Below are positions 8,456 to 55,530 of a stretch of DNA of 59,658 nt, piece by piece. The position numbers were made by a program, and so were the translations under genes. The notes under the pieces were generated by a model that saw only the letters and a program-made list of their open reading frames with translations, had not been told where the DNA came from and did not search any database. The number at the start of each line of letters is the position of its first letter. Within the stretch, counting starts at the first letter, position 1. The DNA is from Clostridiales bacterium (GTDB lineage: Bacteria > Bacillota > Clostridia > Tissierellales > GPF-1): assembly GCA_013619125.1 (NCBI GenBank), contig JABXKS010000036.1, positions 1 through 59,658 of the forward strand. The letters run 5' to 3'.

Positions 8456-9859
8456 TTATCTCTCCAATTGAGGCGCTAGACGTTGACGAATTCGTCCCCA
8501 ATAGTATTGCGCCGCTTGCGGCACCGCATTGTTGCGCAAGAAATTCCGATGATGATTCAGCTTCCGGTACCGATGCAAAGCGGGCGTGAAAATGGTGTCG
8601 ATTTCACTTTGCAGCGTTTTTGACAGATGGTCCGTCCGATAATATGCATTCACATTTTCCTCGGTCCAAACGCTTTCTTCAAAGAACCGCTTCCCTTTCT
8701 CCCGATAATCTCGAGATCCCGGCAGCAGCATTAAGAGTCCCCACGAGAAGTTATCGAGGGGCATGGTTTTCATCCACTCAATCGTGGCCATCAAATCCTC
8801 AAGGGTCTCATCCTCCATCCCCCGGATCAGATTCGCCTGAACTCGGATTCCCTTTTCCTGACAAATCCGAATCGCTTCCTCCATCGTCTCAATGGAAATG
8901 TTTTTTGCAATGCTTTTCAAATCGCCCGGCTTGATGGTCTCAATACCAAGCTCAATTTTTCTGCATCCTGCCTCGTATAATAGATCGACAATTTCTCGAT
9001 CCAAATGATTGGCTCGTGATTGGATGCAGAATACCATCCGCTTCTGATATCCGCGTTCCATAATCCCTCGACATACCGACTTAATGATGTCTCGATCCGC
9101 TAAAAAATCGCTATCCAAAAATGTAATGCCGTCGATCTGGGTCTGATCCAGCAGATTTCCCATCCAATCCAAGACATATTCGGGACTGTGGTATCGCACC
9201 CCCTTTGAATACGTCAAGGTTTCCGTACAAAAACTGCAACGATTCTTGCACCCTCTTGAAATCATCATGGTTCCGACCGACAAATAGAATTCTCGGATTA
9301 CCCATGCATTTCTGAAGGTATAAAAATCAAGGTCCAACAGATCGATTGCCGGCATTGGCAATTCATCCAAATCCAAAATTTGATCCGTCGGATTCTGATG
9401 AAAATCACCATCATCCATCCATGCCAATCCCGGAATTTCTTTATACTCGCGCCCTTCGACAAACATGCAAAGGCCCCTTTCGCCTTCGCCACAGAATACG
9501 GCATCGATTTCTGAAATTCGTTCCAATGTCAATTTTGGCATCGCTGTCGGATGATGCCCACCCAAGACAATCTTCCCCGAAAACTTCCTTCGTATCAATT
9601 TGACCGTTTCGACCGCGTCAAAGATATAGGGAGAAACCGCGTTCAACCCAATGCAGTCTGGTTGAAAGTCCGCAATCACCTTTTCCATTTTCTTTTCCAT
9701 CTCTACTGTCCCTAATTTCCGATCGACTGCAAAGCGATCAAAGATCACCACAGAATGACCATGCTCGCGTAGCATCCCAGCCAAATAACAGATCCCCAAA
9801 GGCATCCACCGCACATCCACCTTGCTGAATTTCAATGTCAATAAAAGTACTTTCATCAT
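8456..9859 (-). CDS. B12-binding-domain radical SAM enzyme
   Basis: 467 residues. The N-terminal 140 residues look like a cobalamin-binding Rossmann domain (VLLLTLKFSKVDVRW at the start; GGHHPTAMP). The radical SAM domain follows, with the 4Fe-4S motif RGCKNRCSFC (Cx3Cx2C) near residue 205 and an SPASM-free C-terminus. Members of this class often methylate unactivated carbon or rearrange rings using cobalamin. The start overlaps the DUF362 gene by four bases, so they are translationally coupled. In this locus it is the best candidate for modifying the precursor peptides; the reaction is unknown. Confidence 0.82.
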   Translation of the reverse strand: MMKVLLLTLKFSKVDVRWMPLGICYLAGMLREHGHSVVIFDRFAVDRKLGTVEMEKKMEKVIADFQPDCIGLNAVSPYIFDAVETVKLIRRKFSGKIVLGGHHPTAMPKLTLERISEIDAVFCGEGERGLCMFVEGREYKEIPGLAWMDDGDFHQNPTDQILDLDELPMPAIDLLDLDFYTFRNAWVIREFYLSVGTMMISRGCKNRCSFCTETLTYSKGVRYHSPEYVLDWMGNLLDQTQIDGITFLDSDFLADRDIIKSVCRGIMERGYQKRMVFCIQSRANHLDREIVDLLYEAGCRKIELGIETIKPGDLKSIAKNISIETMEEAIRICQEKGIRVQANLIRGMEDETLEDLMATIEWMKTMPLDNFSWGLLMLLPGSRDYREKGKRFFEESVWTEENVNAYYRTDHLSKTLQSEIDTIFTPALHRYRKLNHHRNFLRNNAVPQAAQYYWGRIRQRLAPQLER

Positions 9860-10782
9860 TTTTCTCCCTGCAAACCGCCTTCTCGTTGAAACAGAACATC
9901 TCGCGCATATCGCAATTGTTTCATCTCATATGGGTCTTCCGTAAAATTTCCCAGGCACTGAAACTTCTTTTTCAATTCGAGCAAACCTTCATAACCCAGT
10001 TGATCTGTTTGTAAGAGGTCGGTCCCAATAATCACGCAATCGCCGCGTTCAACCCGGCCTATGTTCGGACCGCCCTCGACAAAGGCTTTCCGTCCATCCA
10101 AAAAAATCAAGTCGGGTTGAATCGCCGCGGCGATCTCAACGACCTTTTCGTGCAAATGATCCCGATGCAAATTAATCCGCTGCAAAGGGTGCATAAATCC
10201 AACTGCCAATTTCATGCCTAATGAAAAATCCGCATGGCGATGAGTTTTCACGTTTGCCAGATAAATGATTTTATCCACCTGGTCCACCAGTCTTGGAACA
10301 ACAAGATCCGGCAAAACTGAAAAATCTCCTTTGACCCGAACCCATTCCAATTCGTCGAAACAGGCAAATTCCACTTGCCTCTCTAAACGCGAGAAAAAAC
10401 CCGCGTCTTTCATCACCTTCCGGGTCGGCAATTCTGTATTGGAGGAACAATCTCCGACAATAATCCGATGGATACCACGATTCTTCAGTTTTTTCACAAC
10501 CCACTCAATCATGTCGGGGGCAGTTGATGCCGGATACGGATTGGCGGTGTTTAAATTCACCTTAATGAGAACCCGATCATAGGAATGAAATTCCTGAAAA
10601 ATTTGCCCGATCACCGGTTCCATCTTTTGATCGATTTCAGTTAAATCACGTCCGTCAAACCGACGAGCCGGCATTTTCTTGCCGCGGCGAATCCGCGGTG
10701 CAATATTCCCGCCAACCTCCATTTTTCTCAACACCTTTGGTCCAAAGGTAAGTTTGACTTTTCGCTTGATTTTTTTAATCAT
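9856..10782 (-). CDS. DUF362 domain-containing protein
   Basis: 308 residues of the DUF362 family, recognised from VLIKVNLNTANPYPASTAPD, IIVGDCSSN, and the NVKTHRHADFSLGMKLAVG block. Unlike many family members it has no 4Fe-4S ferredoxin motif. The N-terminus is very basic (MIKKIKRKVKLTF). Biochemical role of the family is unclear. It is coupled on both sides: it overlaps the kinase gene by eight bases and the radical SAM gene by four. This strongly suggests all three act in one pathway. Confidence 0.8.
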   Translation of the reverse strand: MIKKIKRKVKLTFGPKVLRKMEVGGNIAPRIRRGKKMPARRFDGRDLTEIDQKMEPVIGQIFQEFHSYDRVLIKVNLNTANPYPASTAPDMIEWVVKKLKNRGIHRIIVGDCSSNTELPTRKVMKDAGFFSRLERQVEFACFDELEWVRVKGDFSVLPDLVVPRLVDQVDKIIYLANVKTHRHADFSLGMKLAVGFMHPLQRINLHRDHLHEKVVEIAAAIQPDLIFLDGRKAFVEGGPNIGRVERGDCVIIGTDLLQTDQLGYEGLLELKKKFQCLGNFTEDPYEMKQLRYARDVLFQREGGLQGEK

Positions 10783-11752
10783 CGAGAACTCCTTCTATGG
10801 CTTGCACAAATAAATCCATATCTGTTCCGAATGCCACCTCATAGCACGAAATATCATTCAAAAAATCCATAACAAAGCAAAAGACCGCTTTTGTTTCTCT
10901 TCCACTTCCCAACTTCATCGTAACCGGAAAAAGTGAAGATACTGCTGCCGCCGAATGCATGGCTGTAATTCTGGTCTCTGACTTCCCTGTCTTTTTCAGC
11001 ACAAACAGATGCCGAATATCCGCCATCTTCTGAACCGAATGTCCTTGCTCCCTCAGCTGCAAATACCATTCATCCCGCCAACTTTCAAGGGGTAACTCCT
11101 TGGAAAAACTTTCAAAAAACCTTTGCCGAGAATCCTCGCAGATTTTGACCGTATCACTAATTGAAACCGCATGGTATTGGCCGTTTTCAAATCGAATCAA
11201 GGGCATTTCATCGGACAATGCGGGATACCCTTTCGCCAGAAAAGCAAAGGTTGCCGTTGATTTTCCTCCGCCACTTTCTCCCGACAATAGAATCGAATGC
11301 CCGTTGACTTCTACGCAACTGGTGTGAAAGCGATGATAATCGAAAGAGCGCAATACATCCATCAGAGGTTTTAGAATCAAGAGAAAGACCGAGTAATACT
11401 CAAATTCAATTGAGGGGAGAACCCGTTCTACGACTATTTTTCTTTCTTCCAGATTGATGGTACTGCTTCCATAGCCTTCATAGCGATTCCAAAATGACTC
11501 TCCTTTATGATAAACCGTGTACGCGCGTACTGTCTCCAGCTTGACTGACCCTTGGGCAATGATCGCTGCATCAGCGGGCACCGATTGCGTGATGCTCCCT
11601 TGATGAAGGTCCTGCACACTTAATTCGATCTGATTTTCACGCATAGTAGCGTCTTCCACAAGGGTCGTATACCGATGAATCAAATCGCTGACCCGGTTCG
11701 AATTTGTTTCCAAATGAATCGTAAAATTTTGCCACCCGTATTGTTTCTTCAC
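10775..11752 (-). CDS. HprK-like peptide kinase of the RiPP-like locus
   Basis: About 325 residues with a Walker A motif GESGGGKST and a downstream ALSDEMPLI segment as in HPr kinase/PEP carboxykinase-fold kinases. Related proteins in lasso-peptide clusters phosphorylate the C-terminal Ser of the precursor. I chose the GTG at 11752 (KKQYGWQNF) because AAAGGAG lies seven bases upstream; the longer TTG start at 11800 would place that site inside the gene. It is transcribed divergently from the first precursor gene across a 107-base gap. One precursor ends in Ser, a plausible target (inferred). Confidence 0.75.
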   Translation of the reverse strand: MKKQYGWQNFTIHLETNSNRVSDLIHRYTTLVEDATMRENQIELSVQDLHQGSITQSVPADAAIIAQGSVKLETVRAYTVYHKGESFWNRYEGYGSSTINLEERKIVVERVLPSIEFEYYSVFLLILKPLMDVLRSFDYHRFHTSCVEVNGHSILLSGESGGGKSTATFAFLAKGYPALSDEMPLIRFENGQYHAVSISDTVKICEDSRQRFFESFSKELPLESWRDEWYLQLREQGHSVQKMADIRHLFVLKKTGKSETRITAMHSAAAVSSLFPVTMKLGSGRETKAVFCFVMDFLNDISCYEVAFGTDMDLFVQAIEGVLDD

Positions 11753-11859
11753 GTTTTGACTCCTTTCCTCTAGATCAAACTTCTTGATTATCGCGATCAA
11801 TACGAGGTATCAATATACCATCGGGGCAGGTTTCTCACGCCTACAGATAGGAGGAACTG
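11753..11859. promoter_or_regulatory. Divergent promoter region between the kinase and precursor genes
   Basis: Leftward: TTGATA, 17 bases, TAATCA. Rightward: TTGATT, 18 bases, TATCAA. Both are weak but in suitable places. Between them lies an imperfect palindrome TTGATTATCGCGATCAA (11784-11800) around ATCGCGAT, a candidate operator. The rightward ribosome binding site is AGGAGG before 11860. Confidence 0.4.
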
Positions 11860-11946
11860 ATGAAAGCCTATGTAAAACCAGCATTGACAGAATATGAGAA
11901 CCTCAAAAGAAACACCGCAGGCGATCCACCATCTGGAATGCCATAA
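11860..11946 (+). CDS. RiPP precursor peptide 1 (28 aa)
   Basis: Codes for 28 residues: leader MKAYVKPALTEYENLK, then RNTA, then the C-terminal GDPPSGMP. AGGAGG lies six bases upstream of the ATG. Tyr4, Pro7, Leu9 and Thr19 match the spacing of lasso leaders (YxxPxL, Thr ten residues after Leu), except that the usual Gly after Leu is Glu13. Cleavage after residue 20 would release an eight-residue core beginning with Gly. The second peptide at 12038 is alike in protein, with mostly synonymous or conservative codon changes, which shows real coding. No acidic residue lies at core positions 7-9, so a lasso ring is excluded. Confidence 0.75.
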   Translation: MKAYVKPALTEYENLKRNTAGDPPSGMP

Positions 11947-11958
11947 ATCCTGTAACGA

Positions 11959-11980
11959 CAAGCCTTCGGGTTTGGTTTCT
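11959..11980 (+). terminator. Weak terminator between the two precursor genes
   Basis: CAAGCC-TTCG-GGTTTG: a six-pair stem with one G-T pair and a UUCG-type loop, followed by GTTTCT rather than a full T run. It is probably leaky, letting some transcripts reach the second precursor. Its sequence resembles the strong terminator after the second gene, suggesting duplication of a gene-plus-terminator unit. An eight-base inverted repeat TGTTCTTT / AAAGAACA (11994-12019) lies between this and the second gene. Confidence 0.5.
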
Positions 11981-12037
11981 GCCACAAGGCGCCTGTTCTT
12001 TGCAATACATAAAAGAACAATGCAGAAGGAGAAAAAA

Positions 12038-12124
12038 ATGAAAACCTATCAAAGACCGGAATTGACGGAATATGAGAATCTGAAAAAGAACACAACTGGT
12101 GTTACACCACCATCAGGTAGCTAA
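12038..12124 (+). CDS. RiPP precursor peptide 2 (28 aa)
   Basis: Codes for 28 residues: leader MKTYQRPELTEYENLK, then KNTT, then GVTPPSGS. The ribosome binding site is AAGGAG. Fifteen of the first twenty residues are identical to precursor 1, and the block LTEYENLK is invariant. PPSG is also kept in the tail, but the surrounding core residues differ, the usual pattern of conserved leader and variable core. The C-terminal residue is Ser, a possible target of the HprK-like kinase. The core has no acidic residue and cannot form an Asp/Glu macrolactam. Confidence 0.75.
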   Translation: MKTYQRPELTEYENLKKNTTGVTPPSGS

Positions 12125-12152
12125 AAAACAAACCTTCGGGTTTGTTTTTTTT
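12123..12152. terminator. Bidirectional terminator, precursor 2 / nucleotidyltransferase
   Basis: AAACAAACC-TTCG-GGTTTGTTT stem with T runs on both strands. It overlaps the stop codon of each convergent gene. It ends the precursor transcript rightward and the PqqD-B2-nucleotidyltransferase transcript leftward. Confidence 0.9.
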
Positions 12153-13359
12153 AGTTTCGGTGATTTTTTCGGTCTGTCACAAACAACTTTATCAACGAAA
12201 AAAAGTTAGCGAAGACATTCCCGCCCGGTTCTCTGCCCGTACGCTGCGCAATTGATTCCCCGCTACCAAAATAATAAACAAACATCTTCCATCGATCGCG
12301 CCCGAGACTCGGCATTAAGATCTTAACCAGCCGCCCCTGAATCTTTGCGCGCCATCCCTTGGAATGCTCGAATGAAAAAGATCGATAGAGCCGATATTCG
12401 GATTCGACTCTTGAAGCGTTCCAATAATAGTGCCACGGCTCCCCGCCAAATAAATTCTCTCCGGTGATTTCTTCCACCATGCGAAAACAGATCCCCATAA
12501 GCTTGCGTTCATTGGGATGGTCATATTCATTGCGCATATAGTCCCAATCCAGGTCTTCCTTATGGTTGGTCAGGACTTCGCAAAGATCGATCAACCATTT
12601 CATTCCACAAAAAGAATGATGAATTGAAAAATGGACGATCATCTGCATCAAGGCATCTTCTTTTCGCAAGACAGGGACACTTGATCCCCGTATTTCCTTT
12701 TTTTGATATGTAGAAAACCAATCCCGCTCATCCAAATGATAAATCAATTTCGGTATCGATCCCTGGGGAAAACCCGTTAAATCCAAATGCAAATCCAAGT
12801 TCAAGGGCAATACCGGTGTCTCCTTGATATAATGCATTTCATGCGCCCATTCAGCCAGCTCCTCTTCCGAGAAGACCACGCCGCGAGTATCCATTGTTTG
12901 TTGTGGATATTTGAAACCTAGACGCTTCACCAACTCCGCCGCTCTTTTTCGATCCTGGGGAGGAATTAAGAAATCCAAATCCGATGTGCTTCTAACCGTA
13001 TAGTTCTGATAAATCCAATTGATATTCGGATTTCCTTTAAACCAGATCACTGGTATTTCCTCTTTTTCAAATTCTCGAATCAGAGAAACACCTTGCATTT
13101 CGAGAAATTGATTTTCAAGCGCGATGCGCTTCATATCCGCTTCCACATGATTTTTCAATGTTTTTGAAATCACAGGAAATATTTCAGGATGCCGAAACAC
13201 CTCAAAGAGAACACCACTCAACCGCAATGAATCAATCAATTGCCGTAGTCGCTGTTCTTCGCATTCCGCCATCAGACTATGAATGCTCGATGCGTCACCA
13301 TTGCCATAACGGCATTTCACCCATCCTAAAATGATTTGTTCTTCCTTCGCCATCGCCAT
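12151..13359 (-). CDS. Nucleotidyltransferase-family protein of the RiPP-like locus
   Basis: 402 residues of the uncharacterised nucleotidyltransferase family (NTP_transf_5 type) that often accompanies PqqD/B2 genes and kinases in lasso and related clusters. Visible: IPVIWFKGNPNINWIYQN, the metal-binding STSDLDFLIP (DxD) near residue 130, and LNLDLHLDLTG with a further acidic pair. The C-terminal half is helical and rich in His, Trp and Arg. A nucleotide-transfer activity on the peptide is plausible but untested. The ribosome binding site GAGGTG lies in the gap after the B2 gene. Confidence 0.78.
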   Translation of the reverse strand: MAMAKEEQIILGWVKCRYGNGDASSIHSLMAECEEQRLRQLIDSLRLSGVLFEVFRHPEIFPVISKTLKNHVEADMKRIALENQFLEMQGVSLIREFEKEEIPVIWFKGNPNINWIYQNYTVRSTSDLDFLIPPQDRKRAAELVKRLGFKYPQQTMDTRGVVFSEEELAEWAHEMHYIKETPVLPLNLDLHLDLTGFPQGSIPKLIYHLDERDWFSTYQKKEIRGSSVPVLRKEDALMQMIVHFSIHHSFCGMKWLIDLCEVLTNHKEDLDWDYMRNEYDHPNERKLMGICFRMVEEITGENLFGGEPWHYYWNASRVESEYRLYRSFSFEHSKGWRAKIQGRLVKILMPSLGRDRWKMFVYYFGSGESIAQRTGREPGGNVFANFFSLIKLFVTDRKNHRN

Positions 13360-13368
13360 TCGATCACC

Positions 13369-13785
13369 TCACCAGGAAAGAATTTCTGTATATGTTTGAA
13401 CAAAAGACTCCTGATCGCAAAAGAGCTCGCCATTCAGAAGAATCCACGCATGTCCACTAATCTTTTCATTTTTACGGAACCCGACAACCAGTTGTACGTC
13501 GAATCCGATCTTTTTCGCGCGATCGTATAAAATCAAACTACGTACAAAACATGGATTTTTTTCCTTCAACACGCGCCGATAATACCAAGAAATCAGCCGA
13601 TACCTCTTGATCAAATCCTTGACTTCATGCCTTCTCGCCAAGCCGTGCTGATCTGGAAAAACGGATTCTTCCATCAGCTCCTGCAAGGTCCTCTTCCGTA
13701 ATTTTCTGCGAGTTATATAAATTTTCTCGATTGTCGAAAGCATCATTGGCAGATCGCCGGGAAGAGAAAATTCTTTCACATTCAC
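13369..13785 (-). CDS. Lasso-type B2 protease (transglutaminase-like)
   Basis: 138 residues matching the B2 transglutaminase-like cysteine protease that removes RiPP leaders. The Cys-His-Asp set is visible: NPCFVRSLILYDRAK (Cys), SGHAWILLNGE (His), then a C-terminal acidic residue (CDQESFV). Starts with GTG overlapping the PqqD stop codon (GTGA). Length is normal for B2 proteins. The pairing with a stand-alone PqqD protein is diagnostic of split B1/B2 leader-processing systems. It predicts cleavage of the two precursors just after their conserved Thr. Confidence 0.85.
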   Translation of the reverse strand: MNVKEFSLPGDLPMMLSTIEKIYITRRKLRKRTLQELMEESVFPDQHGLARRHEVKDLIKRYRLISWYYRRVLKEKNPCFVRSLILYDRAKKIGFDVQLVVGFRKNEKISGHAWILLNGELFCDQESFVQTYTEILSW

Positions 13786-14048
13786 TCACTGTCACCATTC
13801 AACAAAATTTCTTTATCCAAAAGTCGAGCCACCAATCCCTCCAGATCCGCCTTTAGAAGCTCTCGCTGCACATCATATTCCTGATTCAGCAAATCGATGA
13901 TCTCGTCCAAGTTTTTCTTTCCATCCACCAATTGATAAAAATCGCTGCCCACCTCGTTCAAGCCAAAATAGTCCCCTGTTTTTGCATTCAACAATACTGC
14001 TTCACCCTTTACTACTTGCACCAAAAAATCTTGATTTTGAATCAGCAT
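13782..14048 (-). CDS. PqqD-family RiPP recognition protein (B1)
   Basis: 88 residues of the PqqD/RRE fold: VVKGEAVLLNAKTGDYFGLNE followed by VGSDFYQLVDGKKNLDEIIDLL is the typical strand-helix pattern. Such proteins bind the precursor leader and present it to the B2 protease and tailoring enzymes. First gene of the leftward PqqD-B2-nucleotidyltransferase transcript, with AAAGGAG upstream. Positions 14049-14129 before it contain no clear promoter hexamers. Confidence 0.88.
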   Translation of the reverse strand: MLIQNQDFLVQVVKGEAVLLNAKTGDYFGLNEVGSDFYQLVDGKKNLDEIIDLLNQEYDVQRELLKADLEGLVARLLDKEILLNGDSE

Positions 14049-14523: not shown

Positions 14524-14985
14524 TTATTTCGTTCCTGTTGATCCGATGCCGCCTGCGCGTTCAGAATTTGTATTCCCATTGTCCGCAACCAGAAAAGATA
14601 AAAACAATCCCTGTGCGATTCGCTCTCCCGCTTCAATGGTCACTGCTTCCTCGCGGCAATTAAACAACGCGATCCCAATATTTCCGTCATTGGATGGATT
14701 ATTGTAGTAATCCGCATCAATGATTCCCGTACCATTCGCCAATACCAAGCCACGTTTGATGCCGATGGAAGAACGCACATAAAGATTCAGCACTTCCCCT
14801 TCTTGCATATAAGACTTAACATCCGTCCATACCACGTAGACTTTTCCCGCCGGGACGGTAAAAGCTTCTGGTGCGTAAAAATCATAACCGGCCGCAATTT
14901 TCGAGCCTCGTGTCGGCAATTGAATTTCTAAGGCACCAAATTTTCTCGCGTCTTCGCGAACAACTTCAAATCCTCGTATCTTCAT
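14524..14985 (-). CDS. dut: dUTP diphosphatase
   Basis: 153 residues of the trimeric dUTPase family, which hydrolyses dUTP to dUMP. The five family motifs are visible: AGYDFYAPE, VRSSIGIKRGL, NGTGIIDADYY, GERIAQGLF and the C-terminal GGIGSTGTK. Start at 14985 (MKIRGFEV), with AGGGGG just upstream. It begins eight bases after nrdJ, so deoxynucleotide synthesis and dUTP removal are coupled in one transcript. Confidence 0.93.
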   Translation of the reverse strand: MKIRGFEVVREDARKFGALEIQLPTRGSKIAAGYDFYAPEAFTVPAGKVYVVWTDVKSYMQEGEVLNLYVRSSIGIKRGLVLANGTGIIDADYYNNPSNDGNIGIALFNCREEAVTIEAGERIAQGLFLSFLVADNGNTNSERAGGIGSTGTK

Positions 14986-14993
14986 GGTTCCCC

Positions 14994-17345
14994 CTATCGA
15001 ATCGGACATACGCCTGTATCACAGCCATCTGTTCCGATATCCAATTGCTGCTCATGCTTCTCATATTTGCTGATCAAATTCGGAATAAATGGTCGCATTT
15101 CTTCAACCCGGCGCTCGTACTCGTCCTTATCGATGGATTCATACGGCAACAAATCATAGAAGCTATCGTCAAGAGACAAGAAGGATAAGGCAACAACCTC
15201 TTCCCAATGATCATAGACCCATTCTTCCACAAGATCCCACTCATGCTCTCGCACATGAACCGTGATCGAGCAATTGTGCTCCACGTAGGAATCCATAAAT
15301 AGCTTGTAGTTTTGCAATTGTTCCAAAGCACTGACATCATACTTGGTGCGGCCTTCCGGCGCTTTTACCGGGAATTCAACGACCTTGGTCGAACAAGTTT
15401 TCCACTCTTGTCCCACCTCTGGGTATACAGGCCAATCCAATTCTTCCGCAACCTTTGCCAATGGATCTGTCGCATTGATTCGCACTCGACGAATATAATA
15501 CGGTGAATGTGAGTAATGCACGCCGCTTGATACGGTTGGTAATTGAGACAGGGTGCCTTCCGGCTTCACTGTTGTTACCAGAATTGGTGCATTTTCGCCA
15601 ATTTCTTCCGCGTAGTGCTCCGCCGCCTCATTGGCTGCAACCCGAAGTTCCGCCAAGAGTACCGCTTGCTCATCCACAGACATATCAACGGCATTGACCA
15701 TATCTTGCCAGCCAGTCAAAGAACAGCCAACCAATTTGTCTCGGTTTTGCGTGGAGTCCCACATTGGTAATTCCAATTCCACGCAGGTCATTCGATAACC
15801 CGCTTTTGCGGAAAGTCGCTGCGCGTCTAGCAAGCCCTCTTTGTCCAGCGTGCCGTTAGCCTGTACAAAGGCAAACGTGTTGATGGTTGTCAGGTTGCAT
15901 AATCCACGTGTGTCCAAAAGAATCTCTCCGCAAGGATTGACACCCTTGAAATTCGGACGTCGTTTCTCTGCGGCAATCGCGTTTACAAAACCCGGTTCTC
16001 CAGAATAACGCATCTTTTCAATCTGCCAATGCCATTGTTCGCGACTCGGCTTTTCACGGTAAAAGATGGAATTGTTGGACATTTGACGATGGATAATTTC
16101 CTTGTCCACAATCCATTGCCCGTCAATCTGCTTGTATAGTTCGCTTTTCGCGTCGATGCATTCCGTATCATCCGCATCCACCAAGACGATCTCCGCTGTT
16201 CGGCGTACGCCGCCAACCACAACATTTTCCCCAATAATATTGGCAATGTCCATGCAATCTATCGGCTTCAGCTTCACGCGCTTCGCGCTGTGAATCACGC
16301 CGAGTTTCTTTATCACACGATCAATCTTAAAGAACATATTCTTCAACGACTCATGACCCGATGCCGTTCCGCCAAAGGTCTTCAACTTCTCACCCTTCGG
16401 ACGAACATGGTCATAATTGATGATAAGGGTTTTAATATCGCGATACTCATTGGAATACAAGACCTTGATGTAATAGTCCAATGCCTGCGTCCATCCCTCT
16501 TTGCTGTCGCCAACGATGATTTTCACCGATGCGTTACGAGAGAAATGAAGGCTGGTTGAATCTTCCCGATCCGATTTCGAAACCGGCGAGTAATCTTGAT
16601 GAATCAATTCATAGTCCGTTCGAACCTTAGGCAACTGCTGAACGTCGTCCTTCAAGATTCGTACGCCAACGCCTGAACCGACCATTAACAAATAAAATAA
16701 ATCCTTAAATGAATCAAAGCTGTCGATCACTTCAAAGGCACAATTATAGTTAGAGATTGGGTAATTCTGCGCCACTGGCGTTCCACCGACCCAGAATGTA
16801 CGGCCTGATAAGAATTGTCTCAAATGGAAAATATTATCGAATAATCGTTCCGCTTCCGCTTTTGTCGTCGGTACCAGACCCGCATTGTACTCCACTGCTC
16901 GACGAATCGTTTCCCACCAATACTCCCGGCGGTTTTGCTCCGGCAACCAACGGGAATAGGTGCGGTAATAAACAAAATTTCCCAATTGTTTCATTGGAGA
17001 CGGAAGATGCTTGTAACGGCTGACAAATTCATCCGTTAAAATACGGTCATCTGTCCGCTTTCGTGCATCCCTTGTTTTGTCTCGCTCATATCGATACAAG
17101 ATATAGGCCTTGGCAACATCTTTGCGTGGTGAATCCATCAGATAATTTTCGACCCAATCCTGGACTTCCTCTACTTGCATGGGAATGCGAGAATCGCTGG
17201 CTGCCTGTCCAATCAACTCTGCTATCTTTTGACTAAGCGCGGTATCCACACCGTCTTTCGTCGCTTTCATCGCATTCTCAATGGCGCGAACGATCTTTTC
17301 GAGATTAAATTCTACCATTCTCCCGTCGCGTTTTGATACTTTCAT
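14994..17345 (-). CDS. nrdJ: Adenosylcobalamin-dependent ribonucleoside-triphosphate reductase (class II)
   Basis: 783 residues. An N-terminal ATP-cone (VSKRDGRMVEFNLEKIVRAI) is followed by the ten-stranded barrel, with NCAFEVIDSF for the first active-site Cys, FKGVNPCGEILL for the radical Cys loop, and the C-terminal redox pair CDTGVC. This is the monomeric B12-dependent RTPR type, which makes dNTPs without oxygen. AAGGAGG lies upstream. Paired NrdR-like boxes cover its promoter. The organism must make or import cobalamin; no such genes are in the window. Confidence 0.92.
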   Translation of the reverse strand: MKVSKRDGRMVEFNLEKIVRAIENAMKATKDGVDTALSQKIAELIGQAASDSRIPMQVEEVQDWVENYLMDSPRKDVAKAYILYRYERDKTRDARKRTDDRILTDEFVSRYKHLPSPMKQLGNFVYYRTYSRWLPEQNRREYWWETIRRAVEYNAGLVPTTKAEAERLFDNIFHLRQFLSGRTFWVGGTPVAQNYPISNYNCAFEVIDSFDSFKDLFYLLMVGSGVGVRILKDDVQQLPKVRTDYELIHQDYSPVSKSDREDSTSLHFSRNASVKIIVGDSKEGWTQALDYYIKVLYSNEYRDIKTLIINYDHVRPKGEKLKTFGGTASGHESLKNMFFKIDRVIKKLGVIHSAKRVKLKPIDCMDIANIIGENVVVGGVRRTAEIVLVDADDTECIDAKSELYKQIDGQWIVDKEIIHRQMSNNSIFYREKPSREQWHWQIEKMRYSGEPGFVNAIAAEKRRPNFKGVNPCGEILLDTRGLCNLTTINTFAFVQANGTLDKEGLLDAQRLSAKAGYRMTCVELELPMWDSTQNRDKLVGCSLTGWQDMVNAVDMSVDEQAVLLAELRVAANEAAEHYAEEIGENAPILVTTVKPEGTLSQLPTVSSGVHYSHSPYYIRRVRINATDPLAKVAEELDWPVYPEVGQEWKTCSTKVVEFPVKAPEGRTKYDVSALEQLQNYKLFMDSYVEHNCSITVHVREHEWDLVEEWVYDHWEEVVALSFLSLDDSFYDLLPYESIDKDEYERRVEEMRPFIPNLISKYEKHEQQLDIGTDGCDTGVCPIR

Positions 17346-32535: not shown

Positions 32536-32612
<77 letters not shown>

Positions 32613-53837: not shown

Positions 53838-53992
53838 CAAAAAAAACCCCATGCAAAAGAGGTGTATTCCCTCTTTAATAGAGGTTTGCGCCTCCTCATC
53901 TTGCAACATCACGTTGCGGAATTAGCACCTAATTAAAATAGGTTGCTGGACTTCATCGGGCCGGTTCCCTCAATCTCTCTGGATAAGGTTCA
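53838..53992 (-). ncRNA. SAM-I riboswitch (S-box) leader of metK
   Basis: Reading leftward, the aptamer (about 53892-53992) contains the conserved blocks CTTATCCAGAG, GAGGGAACCGGCCCGATGA and CAGCAACC, and closes P1 with GATGAGG. The expression platform (53838-53892) is a terminator: AAACCTC pairs with GGGGTTT around an inner AAAGAGG / CCTCTTT hairpin, followed by eight T. High SAM should end transcription before metK. Confidence 0.93.
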
Positions 53993-55453: not shown

Positions 55454-55530
55454 CGGGGTGTAGCGCAGTTTGGTAGCGCATCTGGTTTGGGACCAGAGGG
55501 CCGCGGGTTCAAATCCTGCCACCCCGACCA
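55454..55530 (+). tRNA. tRNA-Pro (anticodon TGG)
   Basis: 77 bases with encoded CCA. CGGGGTG pairs with CACCCCG. The anticodon arm CTGGT-TTGGGA-ACCAG carries TGG. The T arm has GGTTCAAATCC. Confidence 0.96.

Follow-up and report, generated by a model that had tools for sequence, protein, structure and literature searches.

Two described kinds of ribosomally synthesised and post-translationally modified peptide (RiPP) are close to the system reported here. The clusters for phosphorylated lasso peptides (paeninodin, pseudomycoidin, Bsf) encode a discrete RiPP recognition element (RRE) protein, B1, a leader peptidase, B2, a kinase, K, and a nucleotidyltransferase homologue, N, and their precursors are reported to have a YxxPxL or WxxPxL leader, a Thr (Ile in Bsf) at position −2 and a Gly at core position 1 (PMC8498205, PMC9266682, PMC10368454). 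PadeK-type kinases are reported to phosphorylate the C-terminal Ser (PMC8498205, PMC9266682, PMC10368454), and BsfK to phosphorylate Ser3, aided by B1 (PMC10368454). The linear polyphosphorylated peptides (LPP; Popov et al., Nat Commun, May 2026; PMC13381572) are a cyclase-free, kinase-modified kind, for which a linear phosphorylated peptide was demonstrated by mass spectrometry and LppK was reported to act on Ser3, with up to four phosphates. LPP and paeninodin clusters often lie within capsule loci (PMC13381572). In the RRE-Finder survey, ca. 4,000 of almost 8,000 discrete lasso-type RREs adjoin a leader peptidase and a cyclase, and the remaining RREs are perhaps in uncharacterised RiPP classes, a point that survey left open (PMC7470986). 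The locus described here is at positions 8456–14048 of a 59,658-nucleotide stretch of a Clostridiales bacterium genome (contig JABXKS010000036.1, assembly GCA_013619125.1), the whole of which was analysed and is called the window. It probably represents a cyclase-free lasso-type RiPP lineage that makes linear, phosphorylated, ultra-short peptides modified by a radical S-adenosylmethionine (SAM) enzyme.

The cluster in the window consists of six protein genes and two small precursor genes. One minus-strand run holds B1 (13782–14048), a discrete RRE of the PqqD family and the predicted leader-binding protein (PF05402, E 1.4e-17); B2 (13369–13785), a cysteine leader peptidase of the Transglut_core3 family (NCBIfam lasso_biosyn_B2, 37.5 bits, cut-off 33); and N (12151–13359), an NTP_transf_5 nucleotidyltransferase (PF14907, E 8e-35). 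A second minus-strand run holds K (10775–11800), an HprK-like kinase (Hpr_kinase_C, 25 bits), a DUF362 protein (9856–10782; PF04015, E 4e-36) and a B12-binding radical SAM enzyme (8456–9859; PF02310 and PF04055). These are the neighbours that an initial annotation of the sequence had named – the PqqD, Transglut_core3, DUF362, NTP_transf_5, B12-binding and Radical_SAM matches are above the Pfam cut-offs, and the kinase match is partial and below its cut-off.

Two 28-codon genes on the plus strand separate the runs, each preceded by a good Shine-Dalgarno sequence and each reading as that annotation had it. Gene a (11860–11946; ribosome-binding site AGGAGG) reads MKAYVKPALTEYENLKRNTAGDPPSGMP, a leader MKAYVKPALTEYENLKRNTA followed by the predicted core GDPPSGMP. 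Gene b (12038–12124; ribosome-binding site AGAAGGAG) reads MKTYQRPELTEYENLKKNTTGVTPPSGS, a leader MKTYQRPELTEYENLKKNTT followed by the predicted core GVTPPSGS. Tyr4, Pro7, Leu9 and Thr19 are in both leaders at the positions claimed for them. The two 20-residue leaders had also been called near-identical; they are similar, but the term overstates an agreement at 14 of 20 positions. The genes form an 83-nt direct repeat with 75% identity.

A search of other genomes for this neighbourhood found seven further loci with the same set of genes, one in the window's genus and the others in other genera or classes. The eight loci (the window, L008/L015, L009/L018, L016, L017, L045, L052 and L073; L015 shares its contig with L008, and L018 with L009, and each pair is counted once) have RRE, B2, kinase, DUF362 and radical SAM genes in common, with the last two adjacent at every locus. 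An NTP transferase gene was seen in seven of the eight; the L017 contig ends inside the cluster, and the RRE copy there is cut by the contig end. L073 is outside alignments A5–A9, and L017 is outside A8 and A9. In G001, of the window's genus (Eubacteriales bacterium CSMAG_119, DAOUQF010000040), the six genes and both small ORFs are kept. The six other locus-bearing genomes are G069 (Clostridia bacterium Zod_Metabat.2, in the window's class), G393 (Bacillota bacterium JPNA_metabat.60), G394 (Syntrophomonadaceae CSSed165cm_560), G425 (in the class of G394), G527 (in the class of G393) and G950 (in the phylum of G394).

Small precursor ORFs, the conservation of which the initial annotation had left to be checked, are kept in all eight loci found. 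There are 16 intact precursors, one to three per locus and 26–34 residues long. A third leader ORF of G069 (G069_c, L009 12298–12378) has no in-frame start codon; it is not among the 16, and is included among 17 leader ORFs. The leader residues Y, P, L (L15 in the window) and T are invariant in all 17, and the leader consensus is YEKPxLxEYExLKxxT. Counted from the second residue past the conserved Thr, the predicted cleavage site, the tails of the intact precursors are 5–13 residues long. Gly is the first residue in 15 of the 16 (the exception is the first tail of G069). Every tail has a Ser within positions 2–6, and in 14 tails the first Ser is at 4–6; the probability of all 16 having a Ser is ca. 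4e-7 with Ser at 6%, and ca. 0.005 with Ser as frequent as in the tails themselves. Nine tails contain Pro-Ser and three have a C-terminal Ser. As had been noted for the two window tails, Asp and Glu are missing at positions 7–9, in 15 of the 16.

The G001 counterparts have the tails GAPPSGMP (gene a) and GIDPSAT (gene b). Between the window and G001 leaders, the rates of non-synonymous and synonymous substitution are ca. 0.04 and ca. 0.6 (20 codons each), and the leaders thus look to be under constraint in the single genome pair compared. A leader profile built from 12 leaders, both window ORFs among them, scored 50 bits for each of genes a and b (as training rows) and 2.9 bits for the next best match in the window, with no more than 7.5 bits in 20 shuffles of the window. 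The five leader ORFs outside the training set scored 44.1, 43.1, 35.1, 29.5 and 12.8 bits. The NCBIfam model lasso_leader_L3 was matched by 8 of the 17 leader ORFs at E ≤ 1, the best at 1.4e-6.

The system is rare but coherent. The six loci outside the window's genus were found by a scan of named genomes with a DUF362 alignment, a class-wide search with B2, and genome searches with a radical SAM alignment that has G393 and G394 among its rows. The B2 search gave a match in two of three family genomes and in 4 of 391 class genomes, the window's own included; the other three B2-positive class genomes are G069, which has the cluster, G097, where it looks decayed, and G165, which is unrelated. With a threshold of E 1e-60, radical SAM relatives were present in 3 of 97 genomes in the class of G394 and in 5 of 113 in the class of G393; at 1e-90, the phylum of G394 gave at least 3 of 398 genomes (at most four candidates scored per genome). 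The matches at 8e-186 or better are in G393, G394, G425, G527 and G950, all inside the cluster; the next are in G525, G564 and G602, at 1.5e-67 to 3e-66.

Two candidates were rejected on reading: G476 (L046; radical SAM match at 8e-67) has a glycan locus with another B12-radical SAM enzyme, and the weak B2 match of G165 (L011) is in a housekeeping region. DUF362 matches in Dehalococcoidia and Bathyarchaeota (L019–L026, L028, L029) were not accompanied by other cluster genes in blastp comparisons of the DNA examined, and L027 is a partial DUF362 close to a contig end. A scan of viral contigs with B2 gave one pattern match and no relative. In G097, of the genus of G069, a B2 match interrupted by a stop lies between ORFs that read as HprK- and PqqD-like, and adjoins a 2473-residue ORF; the system has probably decayed in this region (L010 1–1484). 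In G002, of the window's genus, the flanks are present and the cluster is reduced to DUF362 at the site, with no B2 match in the genome. The open DUF362 gene there (L014 12032–12928) is 69% identical to the window's, and both flanks align at ca. 84%.

No cyclase gene was found in any of the eight clusters, as far as the contigs run (that of L017 to within the cluster). In the window genome (G000, 98% complete), at whose locus the initial annotation had noted no ring-closing enzyme, the sole PF00733 (Asn_synthase) match at E ≤ 0.001 is MnmA, and the one Transglut_core3 match is the cluster's B2. The genome-wide PF00733 search covered seven of the locus-bearing genomes. The matches in G001 and G393 are MnmA only, and those in G425 are GuaA and LarE. 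G394 has 12 matches in nine ORFs, which are of AsnB or amidotransferase type, LarE and NadE; two of the AsnB type are below every cut-off, one ORF is a 133-residue fragment and one is cut by a contig end. In six of the seven genomes, lasso cyclase is not the nearest model for any of the proteins. The seventh, G527, has two AsnB proteins and two proteins for which lasso cyclase is the best model, below the model's cut-off, and both of the latter are in lasso clusters of their own (L061 and L062). A consistent pairing of these loci with an asparagine-synthetase-like gene elsewhere in the genome, which would have spoken against the annotation, was not seen in the genomes searched. Two ORFs of ca. 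480 residues in G394 (L038 14084–15502 and L039 1139–2593) start with MSGIAG, have no Cys2, and are AsnB-related, with AsnB as the nearest model, below cut-off; by reading, they adjoin ORFs like trimethylamine-type methyltransferases.

G527 has both kinds of cluster, and its enzymes can be compared within one genome. L061 and L062 each have their own B1, B2, K and N, and candidate precursors (picked by reading, with no model match) in which a WxxP leader precedes a long tail with a C-terminal Ser, whereas the leaders in the cyclase-less cluster are YxxP. The cyclase-less K of G527 is 42% identical to those of G393 and G425, versus 14–15% to its own lasso paralogues. The corresponding values are 42% and 38% versus 14–16% for B2, 55% and 52% versus 32% for B1, and 30% and 36% versus 21% for N. 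The margins are smaller in comparison with the window (26% for K, 26% for B2, 49% for B1, 24% for N). The Y/W split fits the discrimination reported between LPP and paeninodin RREs (PMC13381572), of which G527, with two WxxP lasso clusters and a YxxP cyclase-less one, is a natural test.

Catalytic residues of the encoded enzymes are conserved as well as the gene content. B1 of the window matches the NCBIfam model lasso_PqqD_Bac at 46.5 bits, below the 80-bit cut-off. Its nearest solved structure is TbiB1 (E 2.5e-11), with LppB at E 0.39; a profile of the RRE family gives 7e-20 for TbiB1, 2.5e-13 for PbaB1 and 1.3e-6 for LppB. RRE models were matched, below NCBIfam cut-offs, by the window, L009, L016, L045, L052 and L073 copies and the truncated one of L017, and the L008 copy was recognised by alignment. 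The B2 model was matched in all eight loci. Cys79, His112 and an acidic residue 12 past the His are kept in all seven rows of the B2 alignment, a spacing that matches the McjB triad. In the kinase, H159, K180, D197 and D327 are invariant in eight aligned copies from seven loci; a His-Lys-Asp-Asp set has been described in lasso kinases (PMC9266682), to which these four positions may correspond. The more likely start of the window kinase is the GTG at 11752, as in G001. The G069 cluster has two HprK-like genes (L009 6163–7131 and 7875–8852).

The structural model of the NTP_transf_5 protein (predicted local distance difference test, pLDDT, 78) has LnuA as its best, weak match in the PDB (Foldseek E 9e-4), followed by MenT1 and ANT(2'') at 3e-3 and worse, which are minimal nucleotidyltransferases. 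The AlphaFold model of the DUF362 protein (mean pLDDT 82) has the fold of LarA, the lactate racemase: it matches LarA-type entries at Z 15–17, with the first unrelated fold at 5.4. The best of these is VIA (Z 17.3, root-mean-square deviation 2.8 over 202 residues), and the best Foldseek E-value is 5e-5. LarC is the protein that inserts the nickel of the LarA pincer cofactor. LarC (PF01969) was found in five of the eight locus-bearing genomes and not in G000, G001 or G069, which makes a nickel-pincer cofactor unlikely in those three. The fold favours a role for the DUF362 protein as a nickel-pincer racemase, yet this role was rejected, as LarC is missing in three locus-bearing genomes, the window's included. 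DUF362 and DUF2088 are in one Pfam clan (PMC11770544). The solved structures nearest in sequence to the radical SAM enzyme, an apramycin-pathway enzyme (6fd2) and a tryptophan C2-methyltransferase (6wte), are too distant for its reaction to be named.

The pathway may be derived from, or a sister to, those of the phosphorylated lasso peptides, and the following reactions, cleavage site and product are plausible by analogy with characterised relatives. B1 would bind the YxxPxL leader, as its homology suggests, and the HprK-like kinase would phosphorylate a Ser near the start of the presented tail. This Ser is mostly near positions 4–6 in the predicted tails, a location nearer to the site modified in LPP and Bsf than to the C-terminal Ser. 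The NTP_transf_5 protein might then add a nucleotidyl or sugar group onto the Ser phosphate. Both steps are proposed by comparison with PadeK, BsfK, LppK and PsmN. The B12-radical SAM enzyme and the LarA-fold DUF362 protein would make one further change to the tail – a methylation, an epimerisation or an oxidation. B2 would cleave last, one residue past the conserved Thr, which places the Thr at −2. The product would be a linear peptide of about 5–13 residues, mostly with Gly first. No macrolactam would be closed, because there is no cyclase in the cluster and all tails save one have no Asp or Glu at positions 7–9.

The features shared with LPP are considerable: an RRE, an HprK-like kinase, an NTP transferase (not seen in L017), a cluster with no cyclase, a YxxP leader and one to three precursors with a conserved leader and a variable tail. 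Polysaccharide-type genes are sometimes adjacent as well. Capsule-type genes (O-antigen ligase, Wzm/Wzt-like exporter, glycosyltransferases) are beside three of the eight loci: L073 has glycosyltransferases, a bacterial sugar transferase, an O-antigen ligase and an epimerase as neighbours, L016 is adjoined by an O-antigen ligase, and the L052 run includes an ABC2-type permease (ABC2_membrane) and a Wzt_C-like ATPase, below cut-off. No polysaccharide-type locus was read alongside the window, L009 or L045, the last having one glycosyltransferase-2 gene. That the locus is a member of the LPP family is nonetheless unlikely. The protease of LPP clusters, LppS, is of signal-peptidase type (SipW-like, archaeal-type signal peptidase I), whereas here it is the B2 cysteine protease; the window cluster encodes six proteins, all assigned, with no signal peptidase among them and no MsbA-like transporter such as LPP clusters have. 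LPP precursors have 35–200 residues and the leader YxxPxVLxHQxIxFETxxS, in contrast to the 26–34 residues (28 in the window) and YEKPxLxEYExLKxxT here. The window RRE is nearer to TbiB1 than to LppB. The B12-radical SAM and DUF362 genes are extra here, and the main text of the LPP report names neither (PMC13381572). No paper on a B2-type, radical SAM- and DUF362-bearing, cyclase-free cluster was found in a search of the open-access literature, with subscription papers mostly outside it.

It is also improbable that this is a degenerate or incomplete lasso cluster, with the cyclase lost or acting in trans and the tails being decaying lasso cores, though much about it is lasso-like. B1 and B2 are lasso-type, K and N are homologues of those of the phosphorylated lasso peptides, and the leader has the lasso motif [Y/W]xxPx[L/V/I/F/A] with a Thr near the predicted cleavage site and, in most tails, a Gly at position 1. 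Two lasso cyclases are encoded in other clusters of G527, and the start-less leader ORF of G069 and the DUF362-only site in G002 show that turnover is real. However, an identical cyclase-less set recurs in eight genomes, six of the seven genomes tested have no lasso-cyclase-like protein, the leaders look constrained in the genome pair compared, and the cyclase-less enzymes of G527 group with those of most other cyclase-less loci. Unlike those of phosphorylated lasso peptides, the tails are short, 13 of the 16 end in a residue other than Ser, and 15 of the 16 lack the Asp or Glu; radical SAM and DUF362 genes are added. The combination of an RRE, a radical SAM enzyme and a very short tail recalls the logic of pyrroloquinoline quinone and mycofactocin, in which case the tail would be consumed for a small redox molecule with the DUF362 protein as its user or maker. 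DUF362 shares the fold of LarA, a hydride-transfer enzyme (PMC11770544). Such a cofactor pathway is very unlikely, because a cofactor needs fixed residues and these tails differ in sequence and length from one genome to the next and inside single genomes, the Ser alone being constant; each locus also has one to three different precursors.

A cassette with an RRE, an HprK-like protein and a radical SAM enzyme is also present in SynChlorMet, where ScmC is HprK-like and ScmD PqqD-like. The likeness does not extend to the models: the window kinase scores 25.2 bits with the ScmC model and the best copy scanned 29.8 (cut-off 125), and the window PqqD protein 25.9 bits with the ScmD model and the best copy scanned 40.9 (cut-off 100). 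The radical SAM enzyme here is also of the B12 type, and B2 and NTP_transf_5 are added.

Several points weigh against a cyclase-free lineage making modified linear peptides. The product and the enzyme activities are predicted here from the genes. The lineage is not clean as judged from the RRE sequences: that of G069 is 24% identical to the cyclase-less RRE of G527 and 30–31% to the lasso copies, with which it groups (support 0.96) in small unrooted trees. The two G527 lasso cyclases could act in trans, the PF00733 search covered the locus-bearing genomes other than G950, and G069, with zero PF00733 matches, is only 89% complete. One tail of G950 (G950_b), with Asp7, is the lone exception to the lasso-unlike tails. 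Constancy of the Ser is only suggestive: the sequences are related, and against the Ser content of the tails themselves the probability is ca. 0.005. Window ORFs a and b match no NCBIfam model at E ≤ 1, lasso_leader_L3 included, and in Pfam only DUF5972, below cut-off. The persistence of DUF362 alone at the G002 site suggests that it may have a separate role. Of the N homologues, PsmN is reported either to put hexoses onto the phosphate or to be a nucleotidyltransferase, which is unsettled (PMC9266682), and LppN had no visible effect (PMC13381572).

The cyclase-free lineage remains the probable reading of the locus. The initial annotation had proposed a different class of peptide, which is apt in that the locus is cyclase-free and probably not a lasso cluster; it is better put as a new lineage beside lasso peptides and LPP, because LPP (PMC13381572) is already a cyclase-free, kinase-type relative and a cyclase-free relative of lasso peptides is thus a known kind. 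A separate RiPP class is a more speculative suggestion: its linear products of 5–13 residues would be among the shortest known, one to three per genome and species-specific, with a nucleotide or sugar linked through phosphate to the Ser and a modification introduced by the radical chemistry of the B12-radical SAM enzyme with DUF362, and would serve in signalling or be attached to cell-surface glycans. For one class of the kind that may account for the remaining discrete RREs, the locus names the precursors, the protease, the kinase and two further enzymes, and can be expressed and tested. Such work would place DUF362, of unknown function in Pfam, in the context of a peptide pathway, and would test whether linear peptides of only five to eight residues can be processed by a lasso B1/B2 pair.

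The intergenic sequence of the cluster has two hairpin-like elements, one after each precursor gene, which are related (both of repeat family D2). The repeat ACAAGCCTTCGGGTTTGGTTT 3' of gene a (11958–11978, plus strand) is weakly terminator-like, and the terminator scan made no call on it. Between gene b and the convergent NTP_transf_5 gene, the scan called an intrinsic terminator (12123–12150), a perfect inverted repeat that, being symmetrical, is possibly bidirectional; an element resembling it is also in G001. The scan found two terminators, compared to 0.5 in shuffles. A sigma-70 promoter scan of 11700–12200 found none, with 1.2 expected in shuffles. Near the cluster is an adenosylcobalamin-dependent ribonucleotide reductase gene (14994–17345). 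The ORF that follows it has 161 residues and reads as a dUTPase or dCTP deaminase (region 14524–17345), and the order of the two is the same in G001 and G002. Elsewhere in the window are a SAM riboswitch (Rfam RF00162) on the minus strand at 53893–53989 and tRNA genes at 32539–32612 and 55454–55527.

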